64,000 nucleotides of DNA from Ignavibacteria bacterium (lineage in GTDB: Bacteria > Bacteroidota > Ignavibacteria > Tepidaquicellales > OLB5): assembly GCA_020852705.1 (NCBI GenBank), contig JADZAP010000021.1, positions 87,121-151,120 of the forward strand, in the 5' to 3' direction. The number at the start of each line of letters is the position of its first letter. Within the stretch, counting starts at the first letter, position 1. This document shows positions 4,035-43,365 of this stretch, in pieces. The notes under the pieces were generated by a model. The model did no database searches, was not told the DNA's origin, and was given only the letters and a program-made list of their open reading frames with translations. The position numbers and the translations under genes were made by a program.

Positions 4035-5786
4035 TTATTTAGTTAGGCGGTAGAGTTCATGTTGATTTGTTTTAAAAACCAATTCTTTTTTTATGCCAAG
4101 GGAATCTATTTGAGTATATATTTTTTCAAAACCTAAGGGGTATAAATCTCTTGTTACCAATATGAATTTAGGAGCGGGGTTTGCAATAAGTGATTCTTTC
4201 AGTTTATCAAACGTGCATATAGGGTTAGTTAAATAATACTGAGATACCCATGTACCGTTATAAATTGTATCTGCAGGAGTTACATATTGCTTTAAACCGG
4301 AATAAAATTTTTTTTGAGATGAATTATATTCTATTTTATCAAATAATCTGTTTTTGTATCCGTCTAAATCAAATTGTACCCCATCATTATAACCAATGTA
4401 TGCATATATTAAATTTGCAGAATAACCGTATCCCATTAGAGTTATTATAGAAAAAATAGAAATTAGTTTAATTGAGTTTTTATATAAAGGATATTTAGTT
4501 TCAAGGATTTGGTATGCTTTAACTGCCAGAAGAGATGCCATTAAGCAAACTGAAATTATGCCCATAAATGGATTACGGTATGTGGATAAAGGGTAAAGAG
4601 TTATCCACCATACTGCAGTTACTACTGAAAAATAAAGTATTGCCCGTTCAAAAAGATTTTTTGAATAAAAAAAGAAACTGCTGCAAATCAATAAGAAGAG
4701 TGAAATGGGAAAAAATCTGTTAAAAAGTTGAATTTTTTCAATTATTAAATTTATTGAAGCAGTAGGCGGACCTGCAAATATATCTGTAATTATAATCATC
4801 TTTCTGAGGAGTGTATAATCAAATAAAATAACGGGTATAGTTCTTATTATTGTAAACAACGCGGAAATAAGAATAGTAAAACCAAGCAGCTTTAACACTT
4901 CTTTTTGATGAGTTGTTATGTAGAGAATAAGAAGGGTGATGGTAACTAAAACTGCAACTTGAAATTTTGTTTGAACAGCTAAACTTAGTAATAAGGAGCC
5001 ATAAATTGTATTTTTTATAGGAATCTTATTATTGCTGATTGGGAATGCAATATAGAGTCCATAAATCAAAAAAGCTGATTGCAATAATTCTCCAAAAAAA
5101 GAAGATGAAATAAATCCAAATCCCGGCTGTATGCAAAGAAAAAACAGAAATAAAACTGCAGTTTCTTTTCCGTATTTTTTATTAGTTACTAAGAATATTA
5201 CTATCAGTGTAAAAATTGAAATAATTGATGAAATTAATTTAAAACTCCATACATCTGTAAAGTTAAATATAAAATTTGGGACTGCAAAAATATAATGAGG
5301 CAACATTGCAATTGTATCTATTAAAAATATTTTTTCATTAAGCGTTATAAAAGAAATTCCGGTATTAGCAAAATTTTTTGCATATTCAATATATACCGCT
5401 TCATCATATCCCAAATCATAATGTACAATTGAAATTGGGAACAGAATTAATAAAAATAAAATTAAGAAAAACAGTAGTGTATTTATTGTAAAATAACGCA
5501 GCACTCCATTAAAAATATTTTTTAGATAATTTAATACTGAGTTATAAAACGAGCTGAAATAAATTGAATAAAATATAAGAGAAAGCAAAGATAAACAGGA
5601 CAGTATTAAGAGCTGCTTGTTAATAATTTTGTTAATCTTTTGGGGATTATTAAAACTAAAACTAAATACTTTAAATAAAACTAAATGAGGTGGTATTATA
5701 TTTGAAAGCAGCAACAATATTAAAAAAAATACAGATGTACCTGTAAATACTAAAATTTGTTTTTTTTTCAAAAACCCATTTTTCAT
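4035..5786 (-). CDS. polytopic membrane glycosyltransferase (GT39/ArnT-like)
   Basis: many TM segments; DLGYDEAVYIEYAKNF motif near the N-terminus typical of GT-C enzymes. Confidence 0.65.
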   Translation of the reverse strand: MKNGFLKKKQILVFTGTSVFFLILLLLSNIIPPHLVLFKVFSFSFNNPQKINKIINKQLLILSCLSLLSLIFYSIYFSSFYNSVLNYLKNIFNGVLRYFTINTLLFFLILFLLILFPISIVHYDLGYDEAVYIEYAKNFANTGISFITLNEKIFLIDTIAMLPHYIFAVPNFIFNFTDVWSFKLISSIISIFTLIVIFLVTNKKYGKETAVLFLFFLCIQPGFGFISSSFFGELLQSAFLIYGLYIAFPISNNKIPIKNTIYGSLLLSLAVQTKFQVAVLVTITLLILYITTHQKEVLKLLGFTILISALFTIIRTIPVILFDYTLLRKMIIITDIFAGPPTASINLIIEKIQLFNRFFPISLFLLICSSFFFYSKNLFERAILYFSVVTAVWWITLYPLSTYRNPFMGIISVCLMASLLAVKAYQILETKYPLYKNSIKLISIFSIITLMGYGYSANLIYAYIGYNDGVQFDLDGYKNRLFDKIEYNSSQKKFYSGLKQYVTPADTIYNGTWVSQYYLTNPICTFDKLKESLIANPAPKFILVTRDLYPLGFEKIYTQIDSLGIKKELVFKTNQHELYRLTK

Positions 5787-5829
5787 TTTGAATTGTTAAA
5801 TATTATAGAATTTTATTAATTCTGCAAAA

Positions 5830-7224
5830 CTATAACTCATATTTTTTATTCAAGTTTTCATACTTGTAAACCAGGGCAGCTAAATAAAACGTAGTTGACC
5901 AGAAACCCCACAGACCCACAGATAACCCGCCATAAGAATAATTTATTGCCGAATCAAAAAATAACCTGGAAATAAATACCAGGATAAAAAATATTAAAAG
6001 ATCATTGAACTCTGTTTTTTTCAGTATTTTAAACGAAATAATAAAATAGTATAATTGGTAAGTAACCCCAAGTAAAAAGCCTACAATACCGTAAGCAGCA
6101 AGTAAAGATGCCCATCCAACATCAGAAAAGCCCCAGGCATAAATAGTTTCCTCTTCTGTTTCTGGTCTTATAACCCAAAGCGGATGCATACCGATTCCCA
6201 TTATAATATTTCCATCTCTCCAAAGCCCTATTAAAGCAGCAATATTTGCAACCCGGGTTCCGTAAGTGCCTTCTTTATATTTATAATCAGTCTGCCCCTG
6301 CTCAACTCTTGCCTTAATAGCTTCAAAAATATAATCAGATTGCGGAACAAATTTTATGAAAGCGTAAAATAAAGCTCCGGCAAAAACGGTAAGAATAACA
6401 ATTTGTCTGAAAACCAGTCTGAATTTTTTGTTTTTTACAGAATACCATATAAACATAATTAAAATTATAAGAGCAATATTTAACCATGCGGCTCTTCCAA
6501 ATGCAAGAATATGTGGAGTTATAAACAGAATTGCTAAAAAAAGCTGGTAAACCCGGAATTTCTTTACCATCCACTGATAAATGAATCCAAGGAAGAATAA
6601 TTCACCATAAAATGTGCCACCATAAACCCTGAATACTTTTAAATCTCCGGGTAAATTCTGCTCTGCAATGCCAATATCGGGAAGAAAAGCAATTCCTGTT
6701 AACGCACTTAAGATATAAAGTATATTAGAAACAATTGCAACAGGGAGCATAATTTTTATAAGGTATCCCAGTGCTCTTCGCTTTATAAGCAGCAGAAATG
6801 GAAAAAGCAGAAAACACATCCAGATACCTTTTAATCTGAAGAAAAGCTCAATAAAATTATATTCATATTTTATTGTGCTTATAACAAATTGCAGCAGATA
6901 GAATACCAGCAGCAGCTTTGCAATAATCATAGCCCGGCTTGAAAAAAGTTCACGGTACTCTTTTACATTGTAAAAAGAATATAAAGTTAATCCATAGAGC
7001 AGAAAATCAGAAATCCTCATATTTCTGTAAACAAAATAAAACTGTTTGGGTATCAAACCAAGAGTTCCGTTTTCTATAAAGAAAATTAAAAATATTCCCC
7101 ATGCAAGTAGTTTTGCATTAAGAGTTAAATAATTTTTTTCTTCCAGAATTTCACTGAAGTTATGATTGCGGGAGTTATTTTTACCCGATGATATTCTGAA
7201 GTTATTAGTTAGTTTAACTACCAA
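5830..7224 (-). CDS. O-antigen ligase/polymerase-like membrane protein (copy 1)
   Basis: multi-TM; Wzy/WaaL-like; closely similar to the neighbouring 7249-8679 ORF. Confidence 0.7.
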   Translation of the reverse strand: MVVKLTNNFRISSGKNNSRNHNFSEILEEKNYLTLNAKLLAWGIFLIFFIENGTLGLIPKQFYFVYRNMRISDFLLYGLTLYSFYNVKEYRELFSSRAMIIAKLLLVFYLLQFVISTIKYEYNFIELFFRLKGIWMCFLLFPFLLLIKRRALGYLIKIMLPVAIVSNILYILSALTGIAFLPDIGIAEQNLPGDLKVFRVYGGTFYGELFFLGFIYQWMVKKFRVYQLFLAILFITPHILAFGRAAWLNIALIILIMFIWYSVKNKKFRLVFRQIVILTVFAGALFYAFIKFVPQSDYIFEAIKARVEQGQTDYKYKEGTYGTRVANIAALIGLWRDGNIIMGIGMHPLWVIRPETEEETIYAWGFSDVGWASLLAAYGIVGFLLGVTYQLYYFIISFKILKKTEFNDLLIFFILVFISRLFFDSAINYSYGGLSVGLWGFWSTTFYLAALVYKYENLNKKYEL

Positions 7225-40594: not shown

Positions 40595-40709
40595 ATGATT
40601 TCGGATTTTGGATTGTTGATTACGGAATTTGGATTACAGGTTGCAAGTTTTTGTCATCCCTGTTTACCATGATGCTTAGGCTAAAGCAGGAATCTAAAAA
40701 AATTATATA

Positions 40710-41648
40710 ATGGATCTATTTAACAATACAGACACAATCGAAAAAGTAAAAGCTAAACCTTTCATTAAATGGGCTGGAGGTAAATCAAAATTACTTCCGC
40801 TTTTCAAACAATATTATCCAAACGAGTTAAAATCTGGTTTAATTGATTATTATTTTGAACCTTTTTTAGGTGGGGCATCAGTTTTTTTTGATATAGCACA
40901 AAAGTATGAAATTAAAAAATCATACCTTTCCGATAGCAATATAGAAATAGTGTTGGTTTATAAAGTTATTAAGGAAAGGGTAGAAGATTTAAGATCAGCA
41001 TTAAATGAACTTAAGAAAGATTATTGTAAAAAATCTGAAACAAAAAAGGAAAATTTCTTTTATAACATAAGAGATAAATATAACAATTATAAAATCAGTT
41101 ACTTAAATGGATTAAACGATATTTATGTGTACCGTGCCAGTCAAATGATTTTTTTAAACAAAACCTGTTTTAACGGTTTATATAGATTAAATCGTTCCGG
41201 TGATTTTAATGTACCGTTTGGTAAATATATTAAACCTGGAATTTACAGTGAAGAAAATTTATTAGCCGTATCAGAAGTTTTACAAAATACCGAAATTGAA
41301 CATGGAGATTTTGAATTTTTTAAAAATAAAATTAACAGTAAATCCTTTGTATACTTCGATCCACCTTATAGACCAATTAGCAATACTTCAAGTTTTAATT
41401 CATATAGTAAAGAAGGATTTAACAATGATGAACAAATCAGATTAGCTGAATTTTACAAAAAATTAGATGAAAAAGGTGCGAAATTAATGTTAAGCAACTC
41501 AGATCCCAAAAACATTAACAAACAAGATAATTTTTTTGATGAATTATATTCAGGTTTTAACATTAATAGGATTGATGCAGTGAGAGTAATAAATTCAAAT
41601 GCAGAAAAAAGAGGTAAAATAAAAGAATTATTAATAACTAATTATTAA
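40710..41648 (+). CDS. D12-class (Dam/DpnM-like) adenine-N6 DNA methyltransferase
   Basis: PFIKWAGGKSKLLPLF, FEPFLGGASVFF, VYFDPPYRP. Confidence 0.95.
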   Translation: MDLFNNTDTIEKVKAKPFIKWAGGKSKLLPLFKQYYPNELKSGLIDYYFEPFLGGASVFFDIAQKYEIKKSYLSDSNIEIVLVYKVIKERVEDLRSALNELKKDYCKKSETKKENFFYNIRDKYNNYKISYLNGLNDIYVYRASQMIFLNKTCFNGLYRLNRSGDFNVPFGKYIKPGIYSEENLLAVSEVLQNTEIEHGDFEFFKNKINSKSFVYFDPPYRPISNTSSFNSYSKEGFNNDEQIRLAEFYKKLDEKGAKLMLSNSDPKNINKQDNFFDELYSGFNINRIDAVRVINSNAEKRGKIKELLITNY

Positions 41649-41666
41649 ATTTAAAGGAGAAGTATA

Positions 41667-41810
41667 ATGAATTACAAAATTATTATTCCAAAAAACGATA
41701 TAATCAGCGAAAATGGTAAACTTAGTATAAATGAAATTGTCAATTTACTACGAAAATACAGGAATGAACCAAACAAAGTACGGTTTATTGCTGATATGAT
41801 GGAAGAATAA
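41667..41810 (+). CDS. 47-aa small ORF inside the R-M cassette
   Basis: Not in supplied track; AAAGGAGA RBS then ATG..TAA: MNYKIIIPKNDIISENGKLSINEIVNLLRKYRNEPNKVRFIADMMEE; 5 bp before the next ORF. Confidence 0.75.
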   Translation: MNYKIIIPKNDIISENGKLSINEIVNLLRKYRNEPNKVRFIADMMEE

Positions 41811-41815
41811 ATAAT

Positions 41816-42571
41816 ATGAAAAGTGAATCTTGGAAAGCTATTTTTGATTTATATAAAATTAGTAGCTATGATTTTACTAAATCACCGTTCATAATAACTG
41901 CAGAACAAATTAAAAATGCTACTTCTCATTTTAAGAAAACAACAGAAAAAGAGGTAAGAATATTATGCAAACAAGATAGTCGTGAAAAAAGACCACAAGT
42001 TTTTATTGAAAATGAATTATTTCTATTGCCAATAAAAAATGGTACTTTTGCAATTGTAAAAGGTGAGGGTTATATTGATATTCCCGATATTACAACTATT
42101 CAAGAAATATATAGTTCAAAATTAGAATTTGAGTTAGTTAGTTCTAAAGTAGGTGATTCAGAGATGCAACATTTAGATTTTGCCTATGCTGTTAGTTTAA
42201 TACGCACTTTTATTGGTGATCAAAGTTTAGTGTTAACAATTAGGGGTCGTAAATATACACCAGAGTTTTCTTTTAATGTGGGAAAGCAAAAAATAAATGT
42301 TTCAGGTGTACAGACCGAAGTAGATGCTGGTTACGAAGGTAGAGATAAAATTGTCTTAATCGAAGCAAAAAACCGACTAACTAAAAACACAATTATTAGA
42401 CAACTATATTATCCCCTAAGGCTATGGACAGAGCGTACTAATAAAAAAGTTATTACATTATTTTTTGAGAAAAGGAATAACGAATATTTATTTTGGAAAT
42501 TTGATTTTGCTGATATTAACGATTATAATAGTATAATATTATCAGATTCGAAGAAATATATAATTAAATGA
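41816..42571 (+). CDS. putative type II restriction endonuclease (PD-(D/E)XK-like)
   Basis: VQTEVDAGYEGRDKIVLIEAKN (candidate D..EXK core); between two DNA methyltransferases. Confidence 0.75.
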   Translation: MKSESWKAIFDLYKISSYDFTKSPFIITAEQIKNATSHFKKTTEKEVRILCKQDSREKRPQVFIENELFLLPIKNGTFAIVKGEGYIDIPDITTIQEIYSSKLEFELVSSKVGDSEMQHLDFAYAVSLIRTFIGDQSLVLTIRGRKYTPEFSFNVGKQKINVSGVQTEVDAGYEGRDKIVLIEAKNRLTKNTIIRQLYYPLRLWTERTNKKVITLFFEKRNNEYLFWKFDFADINDYNSIILSDSKKYIIK

Positions 42572-43362
42572 AACTAAATCCAGAAGATTTTCAATCAGAA
42601 CTTACTTCAGTTTGGTCATTTCCAGAACGAGGTGATTGGGCAACACATAATTCTAAATACAGGGGTAATTTCGCACCTCAAGTAGCTCGTAATTTAATTG
42701 AGAAATATACTAAAGAAGAGGAAAATGTTTTAGACCCCATGGTAGGTTCTGGTACAACATTAATAGAAGCAAAACTATTAAACAGAAATGCACTTGGAAT
42801 AGATATTAATCCAAATGCTATTGAATTAACAACAAAAGCATTAGAATTTGAATTTAAAAGCAAATCAAAGCAAAAAGCATTACTTGGCGATGCAAGGAAT
42901 CTTGAATTTTGCAAAAATGAATCTGTAGATTTAATTATTTTTCATCCACCATATTTAAATATTGTTGAATATTCAAAAGGTTCAATCGAAGGAGATTTAT
43001 CAAATATTAGTAACATTGAAAAATTTTGTGTCGAAATTGAAACAATAGCTAAAGAATTATATAGAGTTTTAAAACCCGGTAAGTATTGCGCTGTATTAAT
43101 AGGTGACACTAGAAAAGCTCAACACTATATTCCTTTATCATATTATGTTTTTAATAAATTTCTTGAATCAGATTTTATATTAAAAGAAGAAGTAATAAAG
43201 GCGCAGCATAATTGTACATTTTCAAGAAAATGGGCTGATAGTGCTCAAAAATATGGTTTTTATCTAATAATGCATGAACATTTATTTATATTTCGTAAAC
43301 CTAAAAATGGTGAAGTTTTATCAAAATTTAAATGGAGCATGAAACAAAAACCTAAGAAATAA
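42568..43362 (+). CDS. second DNA methyltransferase (N4/N6 amino-methyltransferase, HPPY motif IV)
   Basis: NLIEKYTKEEENVLDPMVGSGTTLIEAKLLNRNALGIDINPNAIEL, DLIIFHPPY; ATGA overlap with endonuclease stop. Confidence 0.9.
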   Translation: MKLNPEDFQSELTSVWSFPERGDWATHNSKYRGNFAPQVARNLIEKYTKEEENVLDPMVGSGTTLIEAKLLNRNALGIDINPNAIELTTKALEFEFKSKSKQKALLGDARNLEFCKNESVDLIIFHPPYLNIVEYSKGSIEGDLSNISNIEKFCVEIETIAKELYRVLKPGKYCAVLIGDTRKAQHYIPLSYYVFNKFLESDFILKEEVIKAQHNCTFSRKWADSAQKYGFYLIMHEHLFIFRKPKNGEVLSKFKWSMKQKPKK

Positions 43363-43365
43363 TCT

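Follow-up and report, generated by a model that had tools for sequence, protein, structure and literature searches.

A very likely GATC-specific restriction-modification operon in an Ignavibacteria bacterium, with a DUF6996/DUF6997 nuclease between a Dam-like and an HPPY methyltransferase

Judged from their sequences, the four ORFs at positions 40,710 to 43,362 of the window (the whole stretch of 64,000 nucleotides that was analysed) form a Type II restriction-modification (R-M) operon. It is very likely that this operon was horizontally acquired and is GATC-specific, with the build of the DpnII/MboI systems but with two of the parts replaced. Its layout and its predicted site are already familiar; what is new is the family of the nuclease, the methyltransferase (MTase) with the motif HPPY and the finding of different nucleases at one locus. 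Our analysis gives a likely site (GATC) for a widespread nuclease family that is still named DUF6996/DUF6997, and a likely role for a class of HPPY MTases that occurs in R-M operons, in phages and, more distantly, in hundreds of conjugative plasmids. The features of the region are as follows.

40595..43365, strand not assigned: the whole insertion, between the end of the HD-domain gene (40594) and the start of the GAF-domain gene (43366)
40710..41648, + strand: D12 MTase of the Dam/DpnM family, alpha class (PF02086, TIGR00571 and a PDB match to DpnM)
41653..41659, + strand: Shine-Dalgarno-like AAAGGAG for the 47-aa ORF, read from the sequence
41667..41810, + strand: 47-aa ORF of a phage/prophage small-protein family, extra to the standard cassette
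41816..42571, + strand: predicted DUF6996+DUF6997 restriction nuclease, with a PD-(D/E)XK-like core (D170, E183, K185)
42568..43362, + strand: second MTase, with the motif order X-I-IV and HPPY at residues 126-129
41646..42574, + strand: nuclease slot (47-aa ORF and nuclease), delimited by DNA alignment with the congener G374 (L229)

All four ORFs lie on the + strand with a gap of 18 bp, a gap of 5 bp and then a 4-bp ATGA overlap, exactly the coordinates and spacing that an earlier, sequence-only reading of this DNA had given. The three large ORFs are genuine and not chance frames, as indicated by their matches in Pfam and NCBIfam: PF02086 (E=6e-57) and TIGR00571 (dam; E=5e-82) for ORF1, PF22518 (E=2e-51) and PF22515 (E=9e-20), together DUF6996+DUF6997, for ORF3, and PF01555 (N6_N4_Mtase; E=1e-29) for ORF4. 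In PADLOC, ORF3 was classed with the Type II restriction enzymes, and ORF1 and ORF4 with Type II or orphan MTases. These assignments support the earlier interpretation as an R-M operon, and the MTase and nuclease genes, predicted to be cognates, adjoin each other as in Type II systems.

The cassette had also been suspected to be an insertion between ordinary genes. This view holds, because the site is empty in most of the congeners: in seven of the nine that carried both genes on one contig, the HD-domain gene and the GAF-domain gene were separated by only 11-157 bp. The G+C content of the cassette was about 24-30%, compared to about 33-42% on both sides. The HD-GAF site is an insertion hotspot, and one congener (G315) had an unrelated insert of 1.5 kb at the same place. 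Within that insert (L230, G315:C95:17500-21200), an ORF of 245 aa at 1262-1996 had no Pfam match.

In the congener G374 (L229), the same site was occupied by 3.1 kb containing a D12 MTase, an ORF of 200 aa, a nuclease of the MutH/Sau3AI family (PF02976, E=5.9e-12; Sau3AI, E=2.9e-7, and MutH, E=5.8e-5, in the PDB) and an HPPY MTase. The DNA alignment between the window and G374 extended from the HD gene through the D12 gene up to its end (41645), resumed at 42575, seven bases into the HPPY gene, and continued into the GAF gene; only the stretch with the 47-aa ORF and the nuclease differed. The 200-aa ORF (L229 2286-2885), which lies between the D12 MTase and the nuclease of G374, had no match in Pfam or PADLOC. 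We infer from these sequences that the nuclease was replaced in G374 or in the window, and that the two operons do not represent two insertions. It is conceivable, though rather unlikely, that both operons arrived independently at a receptive site and that no nuclease was swapped in place; the unrelated insert of G315 indicates such receptiveness, and the D12 MTases of the two operons were only 70% identical in amino acids. However, the alignment was continuous from HD to D12 and from HPPY to GAF and was broken solely around the nuclease, and the HPPY MTases (89% identical) were no less similar than the HD (84%) and GAF (73%) genes on the flanks. In addition, the last 36 bp of the D12 gene differed by one base, against an overall identity of 74% in the D12-containing alignment. 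A swap of the nuclease accounts for the unbroken alignment of the flanks better than two independent insertions would. Among the loci compared, the nearest D12 and HPPY MTases after those of G374 were in a D12-DpnII-HPPY cassette from a genome of the same class (L231; 59% and 65%), and the nearest nuclease was that of L013 (71%). Because the nearest relatives of the MTases and of the nuclease belong to different cassettes, the nuclease and the MTases seem to have had different histories.

The D12 class that had been assigned to the first MTase was borne out by its family matches and by its structural relatives. Its top PDB match was DpnM (2dpm; 192 bits, E=1.3e-55, over the full length), followed by E. 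coli Dam, and its recognition segment NGLYRxN...FNVPFGKY is common to DpnM and E. coli Dam. The relatives of D12 enzymes include ones of other specificity, e.g. EcoRV. The D12 MTase is predicted to place m6A on GATC in duplex DNA. A second D12-family MTase was located elsewhere in the genome of the window (G000:C6:77575-78288, 125.6 bits).

DpnII, Sau3AI and MutH are GATC enzymes. The D12 and HPPY pair of the window surrounds a MutH/Sau3AI-type nuclease in G374 and a true DpnII in other cassettes, and for this reason the recognition site of the operon is predicted to be 5'-GATC-3'. Apart from L231, an HPPY MTase followed a true DpnII in Fusobacterium vincentii (L138; D12-DpnII-Mrr_cat-HPPY, with PF04556 at E=5e-109) and in the viral or prophage contigs L171 and L172. 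Thus, three sequence-unrelated families, DUF6996/DUF6997, DpnII and MutH/Sau3AI, use one slot between D12 and HPPY MTases. In the F. vincentii cassette, the Mrr_cat nuclease lies between DpnII and the HPPY MTase (L138 3154-3981). Two HPPY homologues (L173 and L174) had no recognised nuclease beside them. Since the nuclease of the window stands in the place of GATC enzymes, and elsewhere only Dam/DpnM-like or DpnA-like protectors were detected with it, it most likely cuts unmodified GATC. A recognition site that is longer than GATC or differs from it, yet includes or overlaps it (e.g. RGATCY or GATATC), is quite improbable for the nuclease. Several specificities are served by D12 and beta-class MTases, and the PDB sequence search found no characterised relative of the nuclease; these points would agree with such a site, but between the same MTases the nuclease is exchanged for DpnII and for nucleases of the MutH/Sau3AI type, and its partners are DpnM-like and DpnA-like. 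Avoidance of the site was also considered as a test of specificity and was not decisive. GATC occurred in the window at 0.65 of expectation, the third lowest of 16 palindromes, a mild depletion that does not discriminate. In the same count, GGCC was very rare (10 seen against 62.5 expected from trinucleotides, a ratio of 0.16), a hint of a system directed at GGCC or of a bias in the genome.

The nuclease had been read from the sequence as a candidate PD-(D/E)XK enzyme that does not obviously resemble DpnII, and both parts of this reading gained support. The DpnII family PF04556 had no match in the nuclease or anywhere in the genome of the window (G000), and Pfam gave no MutH match; DUF6996 and DUF6997 were found instead. 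In an alignment of 37 homologues, 65 positions were invariant, including D170, E183 and K185, which fall in the segment that the sequence-only reading had quoted. In the AlphaFold model (mean pLDDT 91), the predicted strands 171-174 and 178-186 carry or adjoin these residues, so that conserved acidic residues and an E-x-K lie on a central sheet, as in a PD-(D/E)XK core. Foldseek returned only local matches, the best of them to PD-(D/E)XK nucleases such as ACE1/Cas4, RecU and Holliday junction enzymes (best E=1.8e-3, none below E 0.001), and the PDB search by sequence returned no relative but one chance match. The literature library searched had nothing on DUF6997, and no characterised DUF6996/DUF6997 enzyme appeared in the resources searched. 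The family is nevertheless common in sequence data: one scan of genome contigs found 221 relatives, the best 80 of which were 60-71% identical and came from many phyla. The PADLOC model REase_II (PDLC03513) matched the nuclease with E=1.2e-32; the model has 426 positions, whereas the window has a short form of 251 aa that does not include the C-terminal part, and plasmid relatives of about 430 aa adjoin a DNA adenine methylase.

The partners of this nuclease differed widely among the 86 nuclease loci, with the reservation that some of the counts come from contigs ending near the cassette: a DpnA-like MTase upstream in 30, a D12 MTase alone in 19, D12 upstream with HPPY downstream in 14, D12 with a DpnA-like MTase downstream in 12, HPPY upstream as the sole detected MTase in two (L059 and L066), and a few other sets. 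On the nuclease tree, the set of partners changed about 20 times; the sets were clustered compared to shuffled labels, yet they had been exchanged many times. When the DpnA-like partner (query from L014) was compared to the DpnA of L126, a canonical D12-DpnII-DpnA cassette, the score was 240 bits. In the locus L191, a D12 MTase, DpnII and the DUF6997 nuclease follow one another.

Motif IV is usually DPPY or NPPY in m6A enzymes and SPPY in m4C enzymes. In the second MTase it is FHPPY, the unusual motif noted earlier, and HPPY was kept in all homologues with a readable motif IV. Motif I precedes motif IV (order X-I-IV), unlike in the beta class, and the structural model resembles Trm11-type MTases. 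A literature search on HPPY DNA methyltransferases gave nothing relevant. More distant relatives were found in 861 plasmid records, of which 779 were conjugative; among those inspected (e.g. L139, L140 and L141), some keep HPPY and one has HAPY. The single-strand MTases M.EcoGIX and M.BceJIII, which are carried by conjugative plasmids, belong to the beta class and have DPPY (PMC7736820), and a relationship of the HPPY MTase with M.EcoGIX was rejected on account of its motif and motif order. What they share is limited to an analogy, in that those plasmid MTases protect entering DNA and the distant HPPY relatives are mostly on conjugative plasmids.

In the DpnII system, the second MTase is DpnA, which works on single strands (PMC3573125). 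In sister cassettes, the place of the HPPY MTase is taken by DpnA-like MTases, and the two kinds occurred together in only one of the 31 D12 cassettes that had a further MTase (p about 0.006 by Fisher's test, uncorrected for relatedness of the sequences). From this arrangement we favour a DpnA-like task for the HPPY MTase. In the mechanism that we propose, the D12 enzyme would place m6A on GATC of the duplex host DNA, and the DUF6996/DUF6997 nuclease would cut unmodified GATC of incoming DNA. The HPPY MTase would modify the same sites, and perhaps protect newly entered or single-stranded DNA. The host encodes a ComEC-family protein and could therefore take up single-stranded DNA; that the HPPY MTase acts on single strands is only a possibility. 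It is also possible, though doubtful, that this enzyme makes another mark (e.g. m4C on the C of GATC) or reads another motif, such that the operon would write two kinds of marks and have no equivalent of DpnA. Its motif IV is neither DPPY/NPPY nor SPPY, its motif order differs from that of DpnA, and in L042 and L176 it stands alongside a DpnA-like MTase; against these stand its occupation of the DpnA-like place, the rarity of such co-occurrence, and L059 and L066, where it is the only MTase detected beside the nuclease. In L176, the two MTases accompany a D12::DpnII fusion, which reads as a single frame of 639 aa (5066-6982).

The nuclease slot between the two conserved MTase genes would be open, with unrelated isospecific nucleases exchanged by recombination. 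Our fullest proposal is a tentative one: that the HPPY MTase evolved independently into a DpnA-like enzyme which protects GATC in incoming single-stranded DNA, and that the slot exchanges unrelated GATC nucleases by recombination at the 3' end of D12 and the 5' end of HPPY. The presence of different nucleases at a single locus, with the same two MTases on either side, suggests that nucleases of one specificity serve as modular parts. This bears on how restriction systems may diversify without killing the host, as the protecting methylation stays while the nuclease changes.

The likeness to DpnII/MboI systems suggested earlier needs some adjustment. It was correct that the nuclease is not DpnII, but the systems are less distant than was thought, because D12 and HPPY MTases also flank true DpnII and the MutH/Sau3AI-type nuclease of a congener. 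A DpnM-like D12 MTase, one nuclease, a second MTase, a single operon and a predicted GATC site are shared. The differences are the DUF6996/DUF6997 nuclease in place of one matching PF04556, the HPPY enzyme with the order X-I-IV in place of a beta-class DPPY DpnA, the gene order MTase-nuclease-MTase and the extra 47-aa ORF. With two defining features missing (PF04556 and the DpnA-like MTase), we regard the operon as one that would work like a DpnII system and not as a member. Compared to the LlaKR2I-like GATC systems with Sau3AI/MutH nucleases, a nuclease of that family fills the same slot in G374, whereas the nuclease of the window has no MutH match.

The description as a compact four-gene cassette does not apply to a conserved unit. 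D12 and nuclease genes were adjacent or overlapping in nearly all D12 cassettes compared, and the 47-aa ORF was in the window only. The ORF lies just upstream of the nuclease and is preceded by a good ribosome-binding site (AAAGGAG, 7 nt ahead of its ATG); that of the nuclease is poor, and translational coupling of the two is conceivable. Searches against Pfam, NCBIfam, PADLOC and PHROG gave no match, single-sequence searches gave chance matches only, and the idea that it is a conserved component of R-M systems or a control protein was rejected, since there was no family match and the ORF is missing from other D12 cassettes. However, when viral contigs were scanned with a motif, small proteins about 46 residues long came up that also agree in PxN, G and LLR, which lie outside the motif scanned for, and a profile search for the family found 15 loci. 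By its sequence, the ORF is a phage-type small ORF, a member of a real small-protein family (PxN...G...LLR...FIADM[ML]E) on phage and prophage contigs. Among 297 sampled genomes of the phylum, the family was absent from the 296 other than that of the window, and its phage and prophage proteins had no PHROG match. The loci of the family are L217, L218, L224, L225, L227 and L233-L247, some of which are near DNA MTase or terminase genes.
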